A DNA stretch of 64,000 bases, taken from Methanosarcina horonobensis HB-1 = JCM 15518. Its GTDB lineage: Archaea > Halobacteriota > Methanosarcinia > Methanosarcinales > Methanosarcinaceae. The stretch covers positions 4,443,036 to 4,507,035 of the forward strand of contig NZ_CP009516.1 of NCBI RefSeq assembly GCF_000970285.1, written 5' to 3'. Below are positions 38,871-49,246 of the stretch, in pieces. Position 1 is the first letter of the stretch; each line of letters begins with the position of its first letter. Below the pieces are notes generated by a model. That model was not told where the DNA came from. It searched no databases and worked only from the letters and a program-made list of their open reading frames with translations. Both the position numbers and the translations under genes were made by a program.

Positions 38871-40035
38871 TTATCCCAAGTAGTAATATCCAATTGAGGA
38901 GCTATCACTTGCTCCTATGTACTCATAGACATTTTCTTCGTAGTTGAAAGTAGTATCAGCTGAATTATACCAATACATCGTATTTGATCCAGTCCAAGTA
39001 TTTGGATCATTTAATTGGAAGTATGGATTTACACCGTCGGAGTCGTATCCTCTAAGAACTACTGCATGGCAAACACCCCATCTGCTTTCTTCTATAAGAA
39101 AGAACGGTCTTCCGCGATCAATCATATCTTCAATTTGATCGATAGTATAGGAGAGTGATGGAGAGTGATCCAGTTCTTAAACCTTTGATTAAAGATACTC
39201 CTTGATGATCCAGATAATCTTGAGCTTGTCCAGCACTCATAGGAGCACAACCATTATAATCCCAGATGCTCCATATAGTTGGATGGTTACCGGACCAGTA
39301 TTCTTCAAGCATTGCAGCAGAAGCCTCACCACAAGCTTGGCTTGCAGCATCGTAGTCTCCTTCTTCTGTGTATATCTCCCATTGACTTCTTTGAGGAACA
39401 GTCAGGAATTTACTGCTTTTGATTGTTGCAGTTGGACTAACATTTTCATACATACTGATAGATGATCCCAAGAGACCTATTTCACATTCAATTCCGTTCT
39501 TTACAACTTTCCCAACAATGCATCCGTTTCCATCTTCATAGAATTCTCCATGTAAGTTGTATTTTCCCTTTTTATCTTGAAGATCGACGTAAGTTGCGTA
39601 CATTTCTCTCGCGCCTTCATAACGGGTCATTGTCATGTTGTCTACTTTAGAGTAAATAGGTTTGGCTCCTTCTGGAACATCCCATCCTATGAATACTTGA
39701 GTTGCTTCACCGGATAATTGAACTTTCTCCTCTTCTCCATCAAGTGGGATTATGCCCTCAAGAACAACAAAGTTGTTCTTATCGATGGTGCCTGATAGAT
39801 AAGCTGTCGCTGATTTTTTAGTAGTGTTTGCTGTGCTCAAGTCAGTGATCTTTTTGTCATCTAGAGGAATTATCAGAACCCCATCTTTTTGATCCATTGT
39901 TAAGGTAACTTGTTTGATATCTGAGCTATCAGACAATGTTTCTTCTTGGGCGCTTACCATTGGTACAAATGCCATGCTTATCAGCAGCATTGCGGTGAGT
40001 AGCGCGCCAGCTCCAAATTTTCTGTTTGCAATCAT
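38871..40035 (-). pseudogene. C39-type papain-like peptidase gene broken by a 10-bp tandem duplication
   Basis: Exported peptidase of the C39 (BtpA-like/NlpC-type papain fold) group. The first 301 codons hold a signal peptide (LTAMLLISMAFVPMVSA), a beta-rich propeptide-like domain, and SQACGEASAAMLEEYW with the catalytic Cys. The remaining 84 codons, in another frame, hold HAVVLRGYDSDG with the catalytic His and LNDPNTW with the third residue. The break is at two adjacent copies of GGAGAGTGAT (39150-39159 and 39160-39169). Deleting one copy restores KGLRTGSLSYTIDQIEDMI and a single frame across the gene. The ATG at 40035 follows GAGGT. As written, the product lacks His and is inactive. Confidence 0.85.
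39150..39169 (-). repeat. 10-bp tandem duplication causing the frameshift
   Basis: GGAGAGTGAT twice in a row. Ten is not a multiple of three, so the extra copy shifts the frame of the peptidase gene; removal of either copy rejoins it exactly. Confidence 0.9.
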
Positions 40036-40052
40036 TCTTTTACCTCGTGATT

Positions 40053-40103
40053 TTATTCCCGAGGCAAGAACAGACAAACCTTAAGTACCCTTAAAACTAT
40101 CAT
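40053..40103 (-). CDS. Short upstream ORF, conserved leader peptide candidate
   Basis: Sixteen residues, MIVLRVLKVCLFLPRE, with a GAGGTGA ribosome-binding site close to the ATG. The equivalent ORF upstream of the UAG-containing surface protein reads MPVLRVLKACMILPLE from its second ATG. Of the fifteen codons after Met, five are identical and five differ only synonymously. It ends 18 bp before the peptidase start, a spacing that allows coupling. Function unknown. Confidence 0.45.
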   Translation of the reverse strand: MIVLRVLKVCLFLPRE

Positions 40104-40200
40104 TTCCTCACCTCAGGGCATGTGAAGTTCAAATGTGCTCTGGAAAGTTTGTTTGGACTTCACATTCAAAAATGTCTCATAACCTTCTCCTATACATTTA
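40053..40200 (-). promoter_or_regulatory. Leader element copy 1: TATA box, 5' hairpin and short ORF
   Basis: Reading on the minus strand: a TATA-like CTATACATTTA region (40190-40200 plus-strand view), a near-perfect 14-bp inverted repeat (40152-40165 with 40120-40133, one mismatch) enclosing the core AAACTTTCCAGAG, then a 16-codon ORF from ATG 40103 to TAA 40053 (MIVLRVLKVCLFLPRE) behind GAGGTGA. The peptidase ATG follows 18 bp later. Two related copies lie at 41870-42012 and 48797-48933. Confidence 0.6.
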
Positions 40201-40454
40201 TTACGATGATGAACTTTTCATCAGCCCGATTGACATTCATTAAACCAGTCCTCTTTTTCATCAAAAATGACGGAATTTCAGAGCTCTAACTGACATCTGA
40301 AATTCAACCCACTTTTAGCAAATAACCTGCATATTCTTTCCTTCACTTAGCTATAAAATTAACAAAAAAGGTGGCAATATACATGCCCTAACAAAAGAAA
40401 AGAATATATTATGTCAAAACAATTTAATAAGAAAGCGAGGAAAAAAATATATAG

Positions 40455-41315
40455 ATGCGGCGACAGGAAATGAACGGATTCGAAATTTATAAGAAAATGG
40501 ACGATGACGCTCAGGCAGTACATAGGTCAAGACTTCTAACAGAGATACTTCTATCGTTAAACGAAGAAAGCAGAAAGCTTTCCCAGTTATGCGAAATTAC
40601 CGGGAGCACGTCCCAGGCACTAATTCCAAAGCTCAGGAGACTGGAAGCAGATCATTTGATAGAAACAAAAGAACGCGAATATTTCCTGACACCGGCAGGA
40701 AAAATTGTGGCTTCAGGAATAGCTGACTCTTTTGTAATATTTTGGGCGATTAATAAATTTAAGCATTTCTGGTTGAGACATTACCTCGAAGAAATTCCCA
40801 GTCCTCTGTTAAAAGAAATAGGATGTCTTCACGAGTCTGAAATCCTCAAGGATCGAGGCATGAAAATCCTTAATGTTTACAACAACCAGTTAGAAATGAT
40901 TAAAGAAGCAGACCATATATATGGTATATCGTCTGTGGTAACCGAAGGATATGCTGATTCTATCTCTGAAAGAGTGAAAGAAGGAATCCCTGTTGAGCTT
41001 ATAGTTTCTCTTCACGTTGCAGAAGAATTGAAGCGATCACCTTACGTAAAAAAACTAGCCACATTGAAAGGTTATAAGAATTTTAAGTTAATGCTTATGA
41101 ACGAAGATATTAAAGTGGGACTTATTGTTACGGATAAACGTCTTTCTCTGAATCTGTACAAAAAAGAAGGTATTGAGTACGACATAAGCACAGGCCTGTT
41201 TAGTTCTGACTCGAAAGCTATCGAATGGGGAGAGAGGCTTTTCTGGTATTGTAAAGGGAAAACAGATTTCACAAAATTTCAATGGCGTAAAACTTGTCAG
41301 AGAATACCTGGATAA
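40455..41315 (+). CDS. Winged-helix transcriptional regulator with FilR1-type domain
   Basis: A 286-residue regulator of a family expanded in Methanosarcina. Residues 25-90 form an ArsR-like winged helix (LLTEILLSLNEESRKLSQLCEITGSTSQALIPKLRRLEADHLI) with wing KEREYFLTPAGK. The C-terminal half (about 130-275) is the FilR1/DUF1724-like sensor domain (YGISSVVTEGYADSISERVKEGIPVELIVS). The ATG at 40455 is used; an ATG at 40470 is possible. It is the only plus-strand gene in the surface-protein island, divergent from the peptidase and convergent with 41316, and may control one or both. Confidence 0.8.
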   Translation: MRRQEMNGFEIYKKMDDDAQAVHRSRLLTEILLSLNEESRKLSQLCEITGSTSQALIPKLRRLEADHLIETKEREYFLTPAGKIVASGIADSFVIFWAINKFKHFWLRHYLEEIPSPLLKEIGCLHESEILKDRGMKILNVYNNQLEMIKEADHIYGISSVVTEGYADSISERVKEGIPVELIVSLHVAEELKRSPYVKKLATLKGYKNFKLMLMNEDIKVGLIVTDKRLSLNLYKKEGIEYDISTGLFSSDSKAIEWGERLFWYCKGKTDFTKFQWRKTCQRIPG

Positions 41316-41756
41316 TCATCTTCTAAAACCATTTCTATCTCTACCAGTTTCTATCTTTACCATTGTCGTTATTGGATACCTGTTTTCCCAATCTATAACT
41401 ATGATAGCTGTGCTCCAACGATGTAAAGGTATTGAAACATTTGCTTCTTCAGTTCCATTATCCAGTGTAGTCCTGAATGTATACTCTTTCATATTAACAG
41501 AATGTAGAAGACTAGACGGCTTTGCCTCATAAATCGTTTCGTTTGGATGCAGCCTGTATGATTCTTTGAATATGGAACTGTTATGCGAGTCCAATACTTC
41601 TACAGTTACTTCATGGGCCTTTGTATCGTTATTTCTGATTTCAAAAAAATCAGGTAAGGCTGGACCGCCTGCAAGAAGCATCAACGCATAATAGCCCACA
41701 ATTGCAACTACGGGTATGATCAGCAAGAGAAAAAGTATTTTTTTAAGACTTTGCAT
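41316..41756 (-). CDS. Small membrane-anchored extracellular protein
   Basis: 146 residues, no family recognised. An N-terminal membrane helix (ILFLLLIIPVVAIVGYYALMLLA) is followed by a beta-rich outer domain (FFEIRNNDTKAHEVTVEVLDSHNSS ... YTFRTTLDNGTEEANVSIPL) with several N-glycosylation sequons, resembling a small immunoglobulin-like or DUF-type cell-surface domain. Ends one base from the convergent regulator gene. A decayed copy of the shared leader element lies upstream. Confidence 0.6.
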   Translation of the reverse strand: MQSLKKILFLLLIIPVVAIVGYYALMLLAGGPALPDFFEIRNNDTKAHEVTVEVLDSHNSSIFKESYRLHPNETIYEAKPSSLLHSVNMKEYTFRTTLDNGTEEANVSIPLHRWSTAIIVIDWENRYPITTMVKIETGRDRNGFRR

Positions 41757-42231
41757 TTAAAATCCCTTCTATTATAGAAGAAGATTTGATATCTCCTTCA
41801 AAATCTCCAAAAGGAGTACTCCTACTCCAAACCCTTTACTATTTATCTATTTCACTTCTGACTATTTCCTGGAAAGCTAGGATCAGGCAAGTTTTAATTA
41901 TTCACAAAGTTAACATAAACCCATGCCTCGGACAAGATATGGATCAGGATCAAATACACTCTGGAAGTCGTTTGAACTATATAAACTGTTTTTCTAACAC
42001 ATTCTATATAAATTATAAAGTTTTTAGTCAGATTGCCAGACAATTCATGCTTAATTTATGACTGTATATTTCAATAGTAATACTTCATATGACAGATTGT
42101 ATGATACTTGAATGGAAGCATAGTGTGTCTATGGCTGCTGTCAGTATTTTCGAGGAGAGGAAAAAGCACCTAAAGATTTATAAAGGGCTTTTCTCCTGAA
42201 AACCGCGTTTCGGATCACGCCGGATCACGTC
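41757..42231. other. Intergenic region with leader element copy 3
   Basis: About 475 bp. The left part holds leader element copy 3 (41870-42012). The right part has a 22-codon open stretch (plus strand, from 42130) with no family and a direct repeat CGGATCACGCCGGATCACG near 42208. No supported gene. Confidence 0.4.
41870..42012 (-). promoter_or_regulatory. Leader element copy 3, decayed
   Basis: The plus-strand view shows TCTATATAAA (42003-42012), the core CTCTGGAAGTCGTTTGAACT, and GGATCAGGCAAG, all in the same order as in copy 2. The TATA-to-TGAACT distance (25 bp) is nearly the same as in copy 2 (23 bp). The hairpin is weak and the short ORF is interrupted by stops, so the RNA part has decayed while the promoter spacing persists. 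It lies upstream of the membrane protein at 41316-41756. Confidence 0.5.
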
Positions 42232-42630
42232 TTAAGTGTCATCTTCTAAAACTTCTTTAATTACAGTTTTTGTAGTCCATTCAGGCAACTCGTCAACCTT
42301 TTCAATAGATATCACCGTCCCGTTTGGAGTGTCAACAGTTATCATGCAAAATTCTCCACCGGTCATTTGTGAATAAGTTGATGTTACAGACCCGTTCAGT
42401 GAGTCAGCTTCCCTGTAGAGGTTTTCCAGAGAGTCATCCGGTCCGATGGTTTTTAATGTACCATTTTGCATTTCAACAGTTATTTCGTGGACATACCAGC
42501 CGTTAATCCGAATATATCCTATAGACTCCCCAGTTTCATTGAAAATTGCACCTGCACCTGAATAGTTCCCTTTTGTCAGGTTTTGAAAACCGCTATCATT
42601 AGCATATAAAGGAGGTGTTAAGAATAGCAT
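42232..42630 (-). CDS. Hypothetical secreted protein
   Basis: 132 residues, family not recognised. It starts with only a short hydrophobic stretch (MLFLTPPLYANDSG) that looks like the end of a signal peptide, so it may be truncated or start elsewhere. The rest is a soluble beta-rich domain with a repeated motif type (ITVEMQNGTLKTIGPDDS and ITVDTPNGTVISIEKVDE). The ATG comes 2 bp after the stop of the DUF3160 pseudogene and after AAGGTG, so it was probably the last gene of that transcript. Confidence 0.55.
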   Translation of the reverse strand: MLFLTPPLYANDSGFQNLTKGNYSGAGAIFNETGESIGYIRINGWYVHEITVEMQNGTLKTIGPDDSLENLYREADSLNGSVTSTYSQMTGGEFCMITVDTPNGTVISIEKVDELPEWTTKTVIKEVLEDDT

Positions 42631-42632
42631 CT

Positions 42633-45021
42633 TTACACCTTAAAAGACTCAACCCATTCCGGTCTTTCAGGAGGGTTATTGTTCAGCATTATCCTCCATT
42701 CTTCATCAGTCAACCTTTTTCCTGAAGGCTGCCAGAATTCATAATAACTCATTACAGGACCTGCTCCAAGAACGATCCTGCCGTCAGGCTGTTTATAAGC
42801 CACTACTATCAGATCCAGTTTTCCGGTCCCTTCTTCCAAAACGCTCCCCGAATTTGTATAGACATCTGCAACCATAACAGAGCTCTGGGCGTCACCATCG
42901 ATGTCCTCAAGCATCGGAGCTATGTTCTGGTCGAAATTTCTAATGAGTTCATACTCTTCATCCGTCAGCTCTTTGTTTTCAAGTTCTTTAATAGAGATTT
43001 CCAGTAGTTTTTCAAGAGTGTTTTCAAGAGTTGAAAAATCGTTATCCGACTGCTCATCAAGTACTTTCATTTCGGCCAGCCCGGAATGTGCCATTTTTGT
43101 AAGAGCAAGCATCCTGGCATAGAATTCGGGAACCGGCTCCACATATCCTTGAACCGGTTTCTCCTCAGGCGGCACGTAGGGAGCACCTGTAAAGTAAGCC
43201 TGCTTTGCATAGAGGATAGTATCATGCCTTAGCTCGGCCCAGGAGGCAAGGGCGGTGTTAAGCTGCTTATCTTCCCAGGCTTCGGTCTGCATAAAAGTAG
43301 GATAACCCGCCGGATAACTTACAAGGAGAGGCTTTAAAGCATACAATTGAGCCCAGTAGAGATTTTTATTCCAATCATCTTCATTAAGAGCTCCAAATTC
43401 ATATTCAAGAGATCGATAGCGCACTTTATAATCTTCGTTTTCGGAAATGCTCAGGTTTATAAGATGTTCTCTGGCTCTTTCAGAACCGAGAAGATACATT
43501 ATATTCAGAGCAGGAGTACCGAGCTTATGGAGAATATAGGAGTCTGGGACGTATCGTTGACCCATGAACCTGAAACCTTTTGTAGCATCAAGAGTTTCGT
43601 TTTCAGTTTCGGAACTGCAAGAATTATTTTCCCTGTTCCGCCATAGATTTTCGGACCTTCATATTTTTCCAGTTCCACTTTCAGTGCCGTGAGAGTTTCG
43701 TTGTCGAAGCTTACTCTTTCTCTATCGTCCCCAAAAACAGCATCAAGAGCTTCTGCATATTCATAGGGCCCAAGGTCATCGGAAAAACCAACATAGAAAG
43801 CTGTTACATCGTAGATTCGATCCCATCTGGCCCGGAGGTTTTCGTCCCTGTCAAAATGGTCAGAAATTAAAAGGGCCTGAAAAGTCTGAACTCTTGCTTT
43901 CTTATCTAATTCTTCCAATGCTGAGCTTTCTGTCATTGATTCTTCTGTTGTTGATTCTTCTGCTGTTGATTCTTCTGCAGTAATCATGCCTGACCGGAGC
44001 AGCATACTTATTCTACCGTGCCACATCATGGCCTTGAAGTAGTTCATCAGTTTTTCAGAGGATGTGTAGTGCCCTCTTGGGACGTACTGAGAGTAATCTT
44101 CTTGATACAGGAAAATCGGGGAGGTCTCAAAACCTTCGTGAGCTTCTATCAAAGCGAGTTCAGCTTCAACGTTTTCTTTTACAAATGAAGGGACTTCAAA
44201 GCTATGTTTTTCGGAACCCTGATCCTCTGTAGATTTGGCTTCGATCCTGTTTGGATCTGATTTCCCTTCAAGCAAACTAAGAGCAACTGCAAAATATGCA
44301 ACATTTCTTCTTGCAGCTTCTGTTACTTCTTCATCTGAATTGTTTTCTTTTGCCTCGTTATAGTCCTCTATGGAAGCTTCAAGAAAAGCTTTGTCAAGTT
44401 CCCAGAGCTTATCGTAAAACTCCTCTTCCTCGATTCTCTTTAAAGTCTCATCAAACTGGATATGGTAGAGATGAAGAAGAGAATCCGTTGTGACGAAGAT
44501 CGGGACACCAGCCACTTTAAGGCTCCTGTAAGTCGCATTTACCTGCTCCGCTTTAAATCGATTATTAGTAACATCATTTTCAATTACAACAAACCCATTT
44601 TTGTACAGTAAGTTCCTGTTTTCGTTTATAAGGGGAATCTGTTGAGTGAAAAGATAATAATTCTCAAGCTCCGAAGCCTTTAGAGGCAAAGAATAAGCGG
44701 GGACATCAGCCTCAAACTGCAGGTTTTCTTTGCTGTAATATCTGGAAAAGGAGCTTTCCTTTTCAATTTCAAGGGTATTGCTCTTTTCAAAAAATTCTCT
44801 ACAGGAACAGTTTCCCAGGTATTGTTAAACGAAACACCCAGTCTATCGGTCATTTCTTTCTGGCGTGTTTCTGTAACAGGGTCGCTATTGCTGGCGTTCA
44901 GGTTATCAGCCATTTCTTCCAATTCGGTTTCTTTTACTGTCCCGCTGCTGTCAATGCAGCCGGACCCAGAAACAAGTGTTATCGCCAGCAGGAAGATAAC
45001 CATCAATGCATTTATTTTCAA
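42633..45021 (-). pseudogene. DUF3160 lipoprotein gene, copy A, with two frameshifts
   Basis: Tandem paralogue of the intact gene at 45108-47402, aligning end to end. The 5' part (45021 to about 44790) keeps the lipoprotein signal (VSGSGC) and starts with TTG as copy B does. Frame is lost at a run of six A on the plus strand (44789-44794), where copy B has one base more; the protein resumes at residues equivalent to PAYSLPLKASELENY. It is lost again near 43615, where copy B has GGAACCTGCAAG and this copy GGAACTGCAAG. The three pieces together cover the whole family domain up to ERPEWVESF. A small EEST-type repeat (about 43920-43980) is unique to this copy. Either a pseudogene or, for the homopolymer site, a base-calling problem. 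Confidence 0.8.
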
Positions 45022-45107
45022 GTGAAATCCCTCACATCTTGATTTTGATTTTAGTAAACAGGCTCAAAAAAGAAAGTGAAAAAAGAAGCTACTGAGAATA
45101 GTATCTT

Positions 45108-47402
45108 TTATCCCCTAAAGGATTCAACCCATTCCGGCCTTTCAGGAGGGTTATTGTTCAGCATTATCCTCCATTCTTCATCAGTCAATCGTTCTCCTGA
45201 AGGCTGCCAGAATTCATAATAACTCATTACAGGACCTGCTCCAAGCACGATCCTGCCGTCAGGCTGTTTGTACGCTACTACTATCAGGTCCAGTTTCCCT
45301 GTCCCTTCTTCCAGAACACTTCCTCCCGGACCTGTATAAACATCTGCAACCAGAGTGGACATCTGGGACTTTATATCCACATTCTCAAGCATTGGGGATA
45401 TATTCTGATCGAAATTTCTTATGAACTCATACTCTTCATCCGTAAGCTCTTTGTTTTCAAGTTCTTTAATTGAGATTTCCAGCAGCCTTTCAAGGGTGTT
45501 TTCAAGAGTTGAAAAGTCTTTATCCGACTGCTCATCAAGCACTTCCATTTTAGCAAGCCCGCTATGTGCCATTTTTGTAAGAGCAATCATCCTAGCATAG
45601 AACTCAGGCACTGGCTCCACATAACCCTCCACAGGCTTTTCTTCCGGAATTTGGACAGAACCTGTGAAGTAGGCCTGCTTTGCATAGAGAATAGTATCAT
45701 GCCTGAGTTCTGTCCAGGAAGCAAGAGCTGTATTAAGCTGTTTATCTTCCCAGGCTTCGGTCTGCATGAAGGTAGGATAACCTTCTGGATAGCTTACAAG
45801 AAGGGGCTTTAAGGTGTATAATTGAGCCCAGTAAAGGTCTTTGTTCCAGTCTTCTTCATCAAAAGCTCCAAATTCTTTTTCCAGAGATAGGTGGCTATTT
45901 TTATGTTCTTCACTTTCAGAAATACCCATGTTTTTCAGGTGCTCTCTGGCCCTTTCAGAACCGAGAAGATCCATGATGTTCAGGGCAGGAGTACCGAGCT
46001 TATGGAGAACATAGGAATCAGGGATGTAGCGTTGACCCATGAACCTGAAACCTTTTGTAGCATCAAGAGTTTTGTTTTCAGTTTCGGAACCTGCAAGAAT
46101 TATTTTCCCTGTCCCGCCGTAGATTTTCGGACTTTTATATATTTCCAGCTCGGTTTTCAGTTCTGCCAGGCTTTCATTATTGAAACTCACTCCATACCTA
46201 TTCCCCCCAAAGACAGTATCCAGAACTTTTGCGTATTCATAGGGCCCGAGATCGTCGGAAAAACCGACATAGAAAGCCGTTACCTCGTAAATTCTATCCC
46301 ACCTGTCTCTGAGGCCTTTGTCCCTGTCAAAATGGTCAGAAATTAAAAAGGCCTGAATAGTCTGAATTTTTGCTTCCTTTTCCGGGTCTTCTGAAGAAAT
46401 CATTTCCGGCTGAAGTAGCATACTGATTCTGCCGTGCCACATCATAGCCATAAAATAGTTCTTCAGTTTCTCAGAGTGAGTGTAATGTCCCCTTGGGGTG
46501 TACTGAGAGTAATCTTCTCCGTACTTGAAAATTGGAGATATTCCTCCCTCCTGTTCCTCTATCAGGTGCAGTTCAGTGTCTACATCTATTTTTACAAAAG
46601 AAGGAATTTCAAAACTGTATTTTTTTGCTTCCTGAGAATCGAATAGTGCAATTTCCCCAAAATTCTCCCATGATTGCCCTATCTGGTCGGATTTCGGTTC
46701 AAGAAGGCTCAAAGCAACCGCAAAATATGCTACATTTCTTCTTGCAGCTTCTTTTTCTAGTCCTGATGCACTGTCATAATCCTCTACGGAGGCTTCAAGG
46801 AGAGCTTTGTCAAGTTTCCACAGCTCATCGTAAAATTTCCCTGATTCCGCCCTTTTTAGCGTCTCATCAAACTGGATGTGATAAAGGTGAAGAAGAGAAT
46901 CAGACGTAATGAAAATAGGAACATCAGCCACTTTCAGGTCTCTGTAAGTATCATTTACCCGTGTGTTCCCTGCTCCGGGCAGGTTTTCAATAGCCCGATT
47001 TTCAATTACAACAAACCCATTTTTGTACAGCAAATTCCTGCTTTCGTTCGTCAGGGGAATATTTTGGATGAAATCACCATAGTTTGAAATTTCGGATGCC
47101 TCAAGAGGTAAAGAATAAGTGGGAACGGAAGCTCCAAACTGTAGATTTTCTTTACTGTAATATCCAGAAAAAGAGCTTTGCTTTTCAAGTTCAATAGTAT
47201 TGCTCTTTTCGGAGAAATTTTCAACAGGTGAAGGGGCAGAGGTGTCATAGAAAAAGGTATCATTGGATATATTATCCAGGTTATCTGTAATCCCTTCCAT
47301 GCCGGTTTCTTTAACTGGTTCACTACTGCTGTCAATGCAGCCTGATCCAAATATCAATGAAACCATCAGTAAAAAAATAACTATCAATTCACTTATTTTC
47401 AA
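45108..47402 (-). CDS. DUF3160 family surface lipoprotein, copy B
   Basis: 764 residues. Signal peptide with lipobox (FLLMVSLIFGSGC, Cys22), a Ser/Glu-rich linker to about residue 90, then the DUF3160 domain to the end: ESRNLLYKNGFVVIEN, FITSDSLLHLYHIQFDETL near 165, MMWHGRISMLLQPEM near 318, SERAREHLKN, WAQLYTLKPLL and the C-terminal VLGAGPVMSYYEFWQP. The function of the family is unknown; it is common on the surface of Methanosarcina and some bacteria. The start is a TTG preceded by GTGAGGAA. Codon and motif identity with copy A shows a recent tandem duplication. Confidence 0.85.
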   Translation of the reverse strand: MKISELIVIFLLMVSLIFGSGCIDSSSEPVKETGMEGITDNLDNISNDTFFYDTSAPSPVENFSEKSNTIELEKQSSFSGYYSKENLQFGASVPTYSLPLEASEISNYGDFIQNIPLTNESRNLLYKNGFVVIENRAIENLPGAGNTRVNDTYRDLKVADVPIFITSDSLLHLYHIQFDETLKRAESGKFYDELWKLDKALLEASVEDYDSASGLEKEAARRNVAYFAVALSLLEPKSDQIGQSWENFGEIALFDSQEAKKYSFEIPSFVKIDVDTELHLIEEQEGGISPIFKYGEDYSQYTPRGHYTHSEKLKNYFMAMMWHGRISMLLQPEMISSEDPEKEAKIQTIQAFLISDHFDRDKGLRDRWDRIYEVTAFYVGFSDDLGPYEYAKVLDTVFGGNRYGVSFNNESLAELKTELEIYKSPKIYGGTGKIILAGSETENKTLDATKGFRFMGQRYIPDSYVLHKLGTPALNIMDLLGSERAREHLKNMGISESEEHKNSHLSLEKEFGAFDEEDWNKDLYWAQLYTLKPLLVSYPEGYPTFMQTEAWEDKQLNTALASWTELRHDTILYAKQAYFTGSVQIPEEKPVEGYVEPVPEFYARMIALTKMAHSGLAKMEVLDEQSDKDFSTLENTLERLLEISIKELENKELTDEEYEFIRNFDQNISPMLENVDIKSQMSTLVADVYTGPGGSVLEEGTGKLDLIVVAYKQPDGRIVLGAGPVMSYYEFWQPSGERLTDEEWRIMLNNNPPERPEWVESFRG

Positions 47403-47504
47403 GTCGGATTCCTCACATTTTGATTTTAAAAGGCAAATTCATAAAAATAAAAATTAAATAATAAGAAAATTCAGGCAAGATATAACAATTAGAGAGTAAC
47501 AGGA

Positions 47505-47672
47505 CTAATTTTTTAATATAATTACTCCGAAAATTAACAATAATGTTGCACATAACCCAATTGCTACAACATGGTTGATGTCCTCTATTGGAAATGCAGT
47601 GATTTTTCTGTCGTTTACTTGAGTAGAGAAATTTAATGTAGAATTTTCTAATCCACCACTACTGCCTGAAAC
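47505..47672 (-). other. Open-frame extension beyond the in-frame UAG (readthrough region)
   Basis: 55 sense codons continue in frame after the UAG at 47673-47675, ending at a second UAG (47505-47507). They encode a Ser/Gly/Asn linker (VSGSSGGLENSTLNFSTQVN) and a C-terminal membrane helix (VVAIGLCATLLLIFGVIIL) with a KN tail, the expected anchor for this class of surface protein. If the second UAG were also decoded, 16 more residues follow to a TAA at 47454. Confidence 0.6.
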
Positions 47673-48653
47673 CTAGCTGAAGGACTGAAAATGTGAATCG
47701 TCATAAAGGTAATCAAAACGGACCATGCCTTTCTTGTTGTAGAACACAACGGAAACACCATCAAGACCGGCTTTAATCGCATGTTCTTTCATAATATTGC
47801 AAATTTCGTTAAGTTTATTCTTTGAATAAACCGTTTCCTCTTCTTTATAATAAAGTTCTATTGGAAAAACTTCATCCATCATCTCTGAACCGTAGGAAAT
47901 TATCGGCCCTTCAGGGTAGAAGTATGGCTTTATTTCATCAAGAGAACTATTTTTTATAACTTGTAAGGATGAAGAATTAGACAAATAATAGTAAAGCACC
48001 GGAAATTCAACATCTGTCAGTTGAACAACGTTCCTGCCAAATGTAGAATTACTTTCAGGAAAATAGAACATTGCCGGTTTATTCCAGAGACAAAACATAA
48101 CCGGGACTTCATCAAGTCCGGCTTTAATCGCGTTATTTTTTACAATGTTGTAGATTTCTTTTAACTCATTTTCTGAATAGATAGTTCTACTACCTTCATA
48201 ATCATAGAGTTTAATCAAGAAATACCCGGGCATAGGACCGGATCCGTAATCGACTATCGGACCATCAGGATAGAGGTAAGGCTTTACTTCAAAAATAGAA
48301 CTGTCTCTTACATCCTGCAGGGTTGAACTGAACTCAGCCAGCTGAGAGGTGTTTTTAATTTCCGGAACACTTCCATACGCTTTTAGCACACTGGGGTCGT
48401 ATATCTTACTTTCAGGATCAGTACAGTTTTTAAGAGATTCTTTACTTAACTTTGAGAGCAGGGAGATTATTTCCTCCGGGTTATCGTGCCAGGAATAGTA
48501 TGGCACATTATACATGGGTATTTCTGACCAGTGAATTGTTTTCTCTGTAATTTCATCCTGGTCAGGTAAATAGAAACTATCTGCAAGTGCAGGTTCTGAA
48601 AGCAGGATTAGAACCAAAAAAACAATAAGTAGTCTTAATGGTTTTCTACTCAT
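47673..48653 (-). CDS. Secreted protein with internal duplication, ended or interrupted by UAG
   Basis: 326 residues up to the UAG; family not recognised. The signal peptide is LLIVFLVLILLSEPALA. Two homologous modules follow, at about residues 115-205 and 238-310. Both read KPYxYPxGPIxxYGSxxM, then a YSxNxLxEIxNIxKxxAIKAGLDxVxVxF segment. A domain duplication is therefore clear. Every other intact gene in the window whose stop I checked ends in TAA or TGA; here UAG is followed by an in-frame anchor. In Methanosarcina UAG can be read as pyrrolysine. The alternative is a nonsense mutation that turned an anchored protein into a secreted one. Leader element copy 2 lies upstream. Confidence 0.75.
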   Translation of the reverse strand: MSRKPLRLLIVFLVLILLSEPALADSFYLPDQDEITEKTIHWSEIPMYNVPYYSWHDNPEEIISLLSKLSKESLKNCTDPESKIYDPSVLKAYGSVPEIKNTSQLAEFSSTLQDVRDSSIFEVKPYLYPDGPIVDYGSGPMPGYFLIKLYDYEGSRTIYSENELKEIYNIVKNNAIKAGLDEVPVMFCLWNKPAMFYFPESNSTFGRNVVQLTDVEFPVLYYYLSNSSSLQVIKNSSLDEIKPYFYPEGPIISYGSEMMDEVFPIELYYKEEETVYSKNKLNEICNIMKEHAIKAGLDGVSVVFYNKKGMVRFDYLYDDSHFQSFS

Positions 48654-48796
48654 ATTATCACCAAGATTCCCCTGAAATTGAAAAAGTACGAAAGTAACTA
48701 TTCAAATTTACAAAACTCCTCCACCAGTAGTCCCTATGCTTCAATAATCATCCTTAGTTCCGTAATTCCTGTTTACCATGCCTTTGACTCTATCCT

Positions 48797-48853
48797 TTAC
48801 TCCAGAGGCAGGATCATGCAAGCCTTAAGAACCCTCAAAACCGGCATAGCCAT
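48797..48853 (-). CDS. Short upstream ORF, second copy of the leader peptide candidate
   Basis: Eighteen residues, MAMPVLRVLKACMILPLE, or sixteen from the second ATG (48847). It matches the peptide of copy 1 over its whole length, with mostly synonymous or conservative changes. The ribosome-binding site is weaker than in copy 1. Function unknown. Confidence 0.4.
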   Translation of the reverse strand: MAMPVLRVLKACMILPLE

Positions 48854-48933
48854 GTCTCTGAAAAGTGGAGTTCAGGTGAGTCTGGAAAGTATATTTGAAC
48901 TCCATAATTGATTTTTAACAGACTCTATATAAA
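48797..48933 (-). promoter_or_regulatory. Leader element copy 2: TATA box, 5' hairpin and short ORF
   Basis: Plus-strand view: TCTATATAAA (48924-48933) is a strong TATA box on the minus strand; TGAACTCCA (48896-48904) pairs with TGGAGTTCA (48866-48874) over 9 bp around the core ACTTTCCAGA; and an ORF runs from ATG 48853 to TAA 48797. The hairpin begins 20 bp after the TATA box, so it would form at the very 5' end of the RNA. The downstream gene starts 144 bp after the short ORF. Confidence 0.6.
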
Positions 48934-49246
48934 TTTTCTAGCCAGATCATCAAACTGACATTTTTTCGTATTCTTTTAAAGTACGAAATTATTTCCTGAT
49001 CTTCGATTGTTCGAGACTATGGACAGAAAACTTATAAGGCTATAGTTACTGCAGGTGTTTTTGACAGTGCAAAAAAAGAAATTTCATGAGTCTACAACTA
49101 TTTACATCGAAATTCAAGCAAACTCATCTGAATCAAACGACTACGTGCCGGATTATCTTTAATAGGATTAAAAAAGTAATTTGCGGCGGAAAGTACATGA
49201 TCAGAGTAAGTTATGAAAATCAAAGCCGCAATTGTACGTATTTCCT

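Follow-up and report, generated by a model that had tools for sequence, protein, structure and literature searches.

A family of structured 5′ leaders before exported-protein genes of Methanosarcinales: candidate translational ON/OFF switches

We analysed a 64,000-nucleotide stretch of the Methanosarcina horonobensis HB-1 genome (contig NZ_CP009516.1, positions 4,443,036 to 4,507,035; hereafter the window), in which a promoter and leader repeat had been noticed in three copies. Comparison with related genomes places this repeat in a large, uncatalogued family of folded leaders of the order Methanosarcinales. We propose, with a probability of about 0.58, that it acts in cis on translation as an ON/OFF leader, in which 2:3 pairing (ON) and 3:4 pairing (OFF) exclude each other, behind a promoter with a common operator. 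Each copy would combine a promoter with a structured 5′ leader, and transcription would start near a palindrome, P1, the probable operator of a DNA-binding regulator. In fold A, segment 2 (GAGGCA) would pair with segment 3 (TGCCTC) to form a long hairpin, P2/P3, which leaves the ribosome-binding site (RBS; segment 4, GAGG or GGAG) free and translation ON. In fold B, segment 3 would pair with segment 4 (P4), hiding the RBS and turning translation OFF. A signal, be it a ligand, a protein, an RNA or the state of the ribosome, would shift the balance between the two folds, and copying of the device together with the signal-peptide start of unrelated exported proteins would bring these under common control.

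The three copies are on the minus strand at 40053-40200, 41870-42012 and 48797-48933 of the window, as originally predicted, and are homologous to each other (copy 3 with copy 1, E=2e-12; copy 3 with copy 2, E=2e-9). In each, the minus-strand order is TATA box, P1, an element of about 60 bases (element B), RBS and start codon. The earlier description of order and spacing holds, with about 25 bp between the TATA box (40191-40200) and the end of the inverted repeat (40165) in copy 1. P1 has the layout GGAGTTCAAA-..ACTTTCCAGAG..-TTTGAACTCC; copies 1 and 3 have its proposed core TCTGGAAAGT (plus-strand view) unchanged, while copy 2 has the shorter CTCTGGAAGT. The common downstream stretch had been understated: it is element B (consensus TGCCCGGAGGCATGATAATGTTAGCTTTGAGAATATTTAAGGCTTGCCTGATCTTGCCTC), the most conserved part, located on the minus strand at 40058-40117 in copy 1, 41876-41936 in copy 2 and 48802-48860 in copy 3. 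Only copy 1 is complete within the window, and the gene behind it is frameshifted. The parts of copy 1 are as follows.

40188..40202, minus strand: transcription factor B recognition element (BRE)/TATA region AATAAATGTATAGG, a sequence block conserved in many relatives
40120..40165, minus strand: P1, inverted repeat ATGTGAAGTCCAAA...TTTGAACTTCACAT around a conserved ACTTTCCAGAG, located at the predicted transcript start; probable DNA operator (or 5′ hairpin)
40104..40117, minus strand: P2 5′ strand, segment 2, CCTGAGGTGAGGAA
40076..40098, minus strand: P3 inner hairpin, AGTTTTAAG-GGTA-CTTAAGGTTT
40058..40070, minus strand: P2 3′ strand, segment 3, TTCTTGCCTCGGG, predicted to pair with segment 2 (P2) or the RBS (P4)
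40042..40047, minus strand: RBS and P4 3′ arm, segment 4, CGAGGT, complementary to GCCTCG at 40060-40065
38871..40035, minus strand: gene under putative control of copy 1, an exported protein beginning MIANRKFGAGALLTAMLLISMAFVPMVSAQ... with a C39-peptidase-like C-terminus; frameshift near 39130

Used as DNA queries, copy 1 and copy 3 each matched 27 of the 31 genomes of the genus. A covariance model built from 39 copies (R1) likewise found the element in 27/31 genus genomes, with up to 38 copies per genome, in 67 of 112 genomes of the family (10 of 14 genera) and in 98 of 238 genomes of the class (18 of 39 genera); among the matches listed, all fall in the window's own order. The original prediction had offered such a search as its own check, and the further copies it called for were found. 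The host genome (5.02 Mb) contains 17 full-length R1 matches with E<1e-6, and by this comparison the genome-wide family excludes a chance origin of the likeness between the three copies. Mean column identity across the order is 61%, over four families. Rfam gave no relevant family match above the gathering threshold for 36-52 kb of the window and eight element loci. No description of the leader family was found in the literature on Methanosarcina 5′ untranslated regions (UTRs) and RNA control that we searched, which comprised open-licence papers, so that an earlier description elsewhere is possible.

An open reading frame (ORF) with a strongly hydrophobic N-terminus follows 102 of 124 distinct copies, its start codon mostly lying about 10-17 nt past the modelled element, and a typical protein begins M..KKKFGIG.LLLAMLLVSMAFVPAVSA. 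The mature parts of 106 such proteins form 37 groups without detectable mutual similarity. Since the hydrophobic starts are shared and the mature groups are unrelated, the leader has been duplicated as a unit with a signal-peptide start and joined to many exported proteins of unrelated kinds. Pfam searches of ten of the proteins (E 0.01) identified C39-like, matrixin (M10) and subtilase (S8) peptidases and HEAT repeats; four of the ten were unmatched. This list of downstream genes supports the suggestion of a control device shared by many non-homologous exported proteins. The proposed surface regulon stands as a regulon of exported proteins and not of surface proteins generally: as a negative control we searched the DNA flanking 20 S-layer-domain matches in a relative genome, which we take to be that of M. 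acetivorans, and found no credible copy of the element (best E=0.41, filters off). A general S-layer or surface-protein leader was rejected on these grounds. Insertion regardless of gene context, as of a mobile element or miniature inverted-repeat transposable element, does not describe the family either, because its spacing to exported-protein start codons is nearly constant at 10-17 nt.

For the long hairpin, RNAalifold on the 39 genus copies predicts P1 together with P2/P3, and single-sequence folds range from -30 to -59 kcal/mol. Across the order we used a MAFFT alignment of 76 copies that was fitted to no structure (A5). When P2/P3 is named on this alignment, 86.2% of cells are paired, compared with at most 61.1% for slid partners. 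Both sides have changed in 63 cells as against 28.4 +/- 6 after shuffling (0/500), and the covariation score is 0.243 versus 0.198 +/- 0.006. Permutation of duplex energies gives z=-5.8 (0/500) for 45 representatives of less than 82% identity and z=-4.6 for the 27 copies outside the genus. Over 103 copies the ratio of G-U to A-C is 158:23 in P3 and about 65:15 in P2 minus its first pair, and the apex of P3 is highly conserved. The comparison thus reveals one general feature of riboswitches, in that many genes share a structured and conserved leader in their 5′ UTR.

The other such feature, an exclusive pairing that would control the RBS, is found at the sequence level only. Segment 3 (TGCCTC, the P2 3′ strand) is complementary to the RBS 12-14 bases downstream, in combinations such as CCTCG..CGAGG, CCTCT..AGAGG, CTCCTG..CAGGAG and CTCCTAG..CTAGGAG. 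As segment 3 is common to both helices, P2 and P4 are mutually exclusive. The mean P4 duplex energy of matched partners is -9.2 kcal/mol, compared with -7.3 +/- 0.19 kcal/mol for permuted ones (0/300). The P4 flanks are paired in 50 of 78 unique leaders, where 20.7 were expected and 2000 shuffles reached a maximum of 33 (0/2000). The two strands also switch register together, CCTC-C occurring with GGAG in 28 of 32 GGAG leaders, CCTC-G with CGAGG and CCTC-T with AGAGG.

Several observations weigh against a switch of this kind. The P4 core (CCTC/GAGG) would be complementary even without a P4 helix, since both segment 2 and the RBS resemble Shine-Dalgarno (SD) sequences, and the comparative evidence for P4 is the covariation of its flanks, to which the four-base core does not contribute. 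RNAalifold returned no consensus structure from the 76 copies of A5; structure emerges on closer relatives or when the helices are named. A small hairpin between segment 1 (TGCC) and segment 2 (TGCC-CNRA-GGCA) is conserved but invariant and has no covariation support. As the copies are related and not independent, the permutation figures given above (0/300, 0/500 and 0/2000) overstate significance and are not probabilities. Finally, the ON fold (P2, open RBS) is favoured by a median of 6.3 kcal/mol in isolation, so that the OFF fold would need help. Several copies are close to energy balance or reversed, among them copy 1 of the window (+2.7). In the predicted default fold the RBS is on average 60% unpaired at 37 °C, which is the opposite of a simple RNA thermometer, but some copies favour the closed fold.

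The original prediction had ascribed RNA control to the inverted repeat at the 5′ end, and indeed P1 is placed at the predicted 5′ end of the RNA, forms a stable fold and displays compensatory changes (A-U/G-C, G-C/C-G), as expected if a 5′-terminal hairpin served as control or stability device, for example by protecting the end from exonucleases, and the rest were incidental. Against this stand the substitutions themselves, since P1 cells contain 37 G-U and 55 A-C over the 103 copies (39 and 85 in an earlier count within the family), unlike the 158:23 of P3. Because RNA stems tolerate G-U and not A-C, P1 does not seem to be evolving as a stem in the RNA of this strand, and the RNA-level selection expected of a 5′-end stabiliser was not seen. 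The whole site, centre and loop included, is moreover inverted in 10 copies of one promoter lineage; this inversion and the missing G-U preference are easier to reconcile with an operator in double-stranded DNA than with an RNA hairpin. In some promoter types P1 is preceded by another palindrome, and as RNA the P2/P3 region is better conserved. We regard the 5′-terminal hairpin as an unlikely device; P1, close to the transcription start, probably functions as a DNA operator and is a candidate regulator site, and the RNA device is more likely to be the downstream P2/P3 hairpin with its alternative RBS pairing. The predicted post-transcriptional action remains probable, via P2/P3 and P4 rather than P1. 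Less probable still is attenuation by a leader peptide, in which a small ORF would be translated and the position or stalling of the ribosome would set P2 against P4. Such an ORF (consensus MIALRVLKACLILPLE-stop; MIVLRVLKVCLFLPRE-stop in copy 1 and MAMPVLRVLKACMILPLE-stop in copy 3) overlaps P2/P3, has a GAGG that resembles an SD sequence and stops immediately past segment 3. In 63 of 116 copies this frame has a start and stays open, compared with 4 and 2 for the other frames, and translation of upstream ORFs is known in M. mazei (PMC11456600). However, its openness is no higher than the column-shuffled expectation (0.816 versus 0.854). The sequence downstream is unaltered in a clade whose fifth codon is TGA, frameshifting indels occur, and in most of the copies read from more distant families the ORF is missing and GAAGG replaces GAGG. 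The leader ORF may be translated, but a conserved leader peptide was rejected by the shuffle controls and the nonsense and frameshift clades.

Two further explanations leave the exclusive pairing without a role. P2/P3 could bind a protein that boosts translation or brings the messages to the membrane, P4 being incidental; such a constitutive or localising element would suit the position of nearly every intact copy before an exported protein, the predicted ON default and the highly conserved P3 apex. It would not predict the covariation of the P4 flanks, and other exported proteins, those of S-layer genes, lack the element, so that we think this improbable to about the same degree as the 5′-terminal hairpin. 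That the 5′ end of a gene (promoter, leader and signal peptide) was recently duplicated and is shared by descent without any function is the least credible reading. The tandem copies in one relative, the decayed copies 2 and 3 and the shared signal-peptide start do point to a cassette copied with the gene start, but paralogy alone does not account for an element kept across four families at 61% mean column identity with structure-preserving changes, nor for a leader that persists while the gene bodies are unrelated. Of these interpretations we favour the translational ON/OFF leader.

With respect to the promoters, P1 was also considered as a free-standing repeat. The exact-arm P1 pattern occurs in 10 palindromes of the host genome, two of which are element copies (4430358 and 4491904); two others that were read (L217, L218; 4 of the 10 palindromes examined) carry no element. 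A second palindrome, TGATGAAAAGTTCATCA, lies just 5′ of the TATA box in copy-1-type promoters (window 40202-40225, minus strand) and is conserved in close relatives. At L084, L159, L168, L130, L134 and L145 another palindrome (e.g. GAACATTTAAAAAGATGTTC, CACATTGTAAGAATGTG) is directly 5′ of P1. At these loci, in some Methanosarcina lineages and other genera, the TATA box is apparently further upstream, amounting to a second promoter architecture. At G000:C1:2056846-2056913 (L002), near an apparent transposase gene, the copy-1 promoter and P1 recur in a 91% copy that lacks element B; this is probably a recombination remnant. One relative contains a tandem cluster of many units of element plus exported protein (G009:C1:2844549-2876060).

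All copies had been placed upstream of minus-strand genes for exported or membrane proteins. This is correct for copy 1; copies 2 and 3 are not directly before intact genes, their RBS, start-codon and signal-peptide regions having decayed, and the first long ORFs begin about 100-140 nt further on.

41860..42014, minus strand: copy 2, degenerate, with no ATG after the RBS-like site
~42002-42012, minus strand: copy 2 TATA box
41947-41982, minus strand: copy 2 P1 remnant
~41920-41936, minus strand: copy 2 P2 5′ strand
41876-41886, minus strand: copy 2 segment 3 remnant
41316..41756, minus strand: first intact ORF 3′ of copy 2, 146 aa with a membrane-anchored N-terminus, about 100 nt past the element
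48867..48903, minus strand: copy 3 P1, GGAGTTCAAATATACTTTCCAGACTCACCTGAACTCC
48802..48860, minus strand: copy 3 P2/P3 hairpin, CAGAGACATGG...CCTGCCTCTGG
48741..48779, minus strand: decayed exported-protein gene start of copy 3, MVNRNYGTKDDY-stop, compare MIANRKFGxG
47673..48653, minus strand: intact exported-protein ORF 3′ of copy 3; a similar protein follows a copy-3-like element in the relative L086

The C39-peptidase-like gene behind copy 1 is in two minus-strand pieces, 39130-40035 and 38871-39125, with frame 1 running on into the peptidase C-terminus. Divergent from copy 1 is a gene for a FilR1-type methanogenesis regulator (PF08350; 40455-41315, plus strand). Between copies 2 and 3 there are tandem DUF3160 lipoprotein genes (42633-45021 and 45108-47402, minus strand) that are about 80% alike, the downstream one broken into several ORFs; the relatives L036, L060, L155 and L156 have a copy-3-like element before lipoproteins with the same N-terminus. 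Directly upstream of copy 3 is a sub-threshold Rfam match to sRNA162 (48932-49078, minus strand; 31.4 bits versus a gathering threshold of 78). The Rfam and S-layer matches are consistent with Methanosarcina.

A more specific reading, which we hold only tentatively, is that the leaders constitute a new archaeal class of translational switch native to Methanosarcinales that senses a ligand, a protein or the secretion state and governs a modular group of exported proteins, secreted proteases among them. To our knowledge, archaea have few known cis-regulatory RNA switches of their own. If the ON/OFF reading is true, a family that reaches 38 copies per genome in an order of archaea that metabolise methane would be among the most abundant archaeal candidates. 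The literature describes long 5′ UTRs in Methanosarcina, and these leaders would account for part of the long 5′ UTRs typical of such organisms. They would also offer a testable route to the coordination of exported proteins in methane-metabolising archaea. M. mazei and M. acetivorans are genetically accessible.

Known systems resemble the leaders in part. Like translational riboswitches (thiamine pyrophosphate, crcB/fluoride; Rfam) they are 5′ leaders in which an alternative pairing would free or hide the RBS; unlike these, they gave no Rfam match at the loci tested, have a conjectural ligand, occur in up to 38 copies per genome and precede genes for exported proteins instead of metabolic ones. 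With attenuators of the 1:2/2:3/3:4 kind (trp or ribosomal leader type) they share three successive complementary segments with a common middle strand, but they would act on the RBS and not on a terminator, their 1:2 pairing is without covariation and their leader peptide without detectable coding selection. Since ligand binding is conjectural and the leader peptide fails as a feature, we assign the family to neither class. In M. mazei, sRNA162 acts on the 5′ UTR of MM2442 (PMC3510493), likewise a long Methanosarcina 5′ UTR under RNA control, and a FilR1-type regulator gene adjoins copy 1; sRNA162 is, however, a separate antisense RNA, and near copy 3 there is only the sub-threshold match. The S-layer gene slmA1 of Methanosarcina has a conserved 5′ UTR of about 155 nt with predicted structure (PMC3361143); it too is a structured leader before a surface-protein gene, but our element was not found at the M. 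acetivorans S-layer-domain loci. In Methanolobus psychrophilus, stem-loops are predicted to mask the RBS in long cold-induced 5′ UTRs (PMC5378194); that case concerns an Hsp20 gene with alternative start sites and no conserved family was described, but it provides a precedent for RBS masking in a relative.

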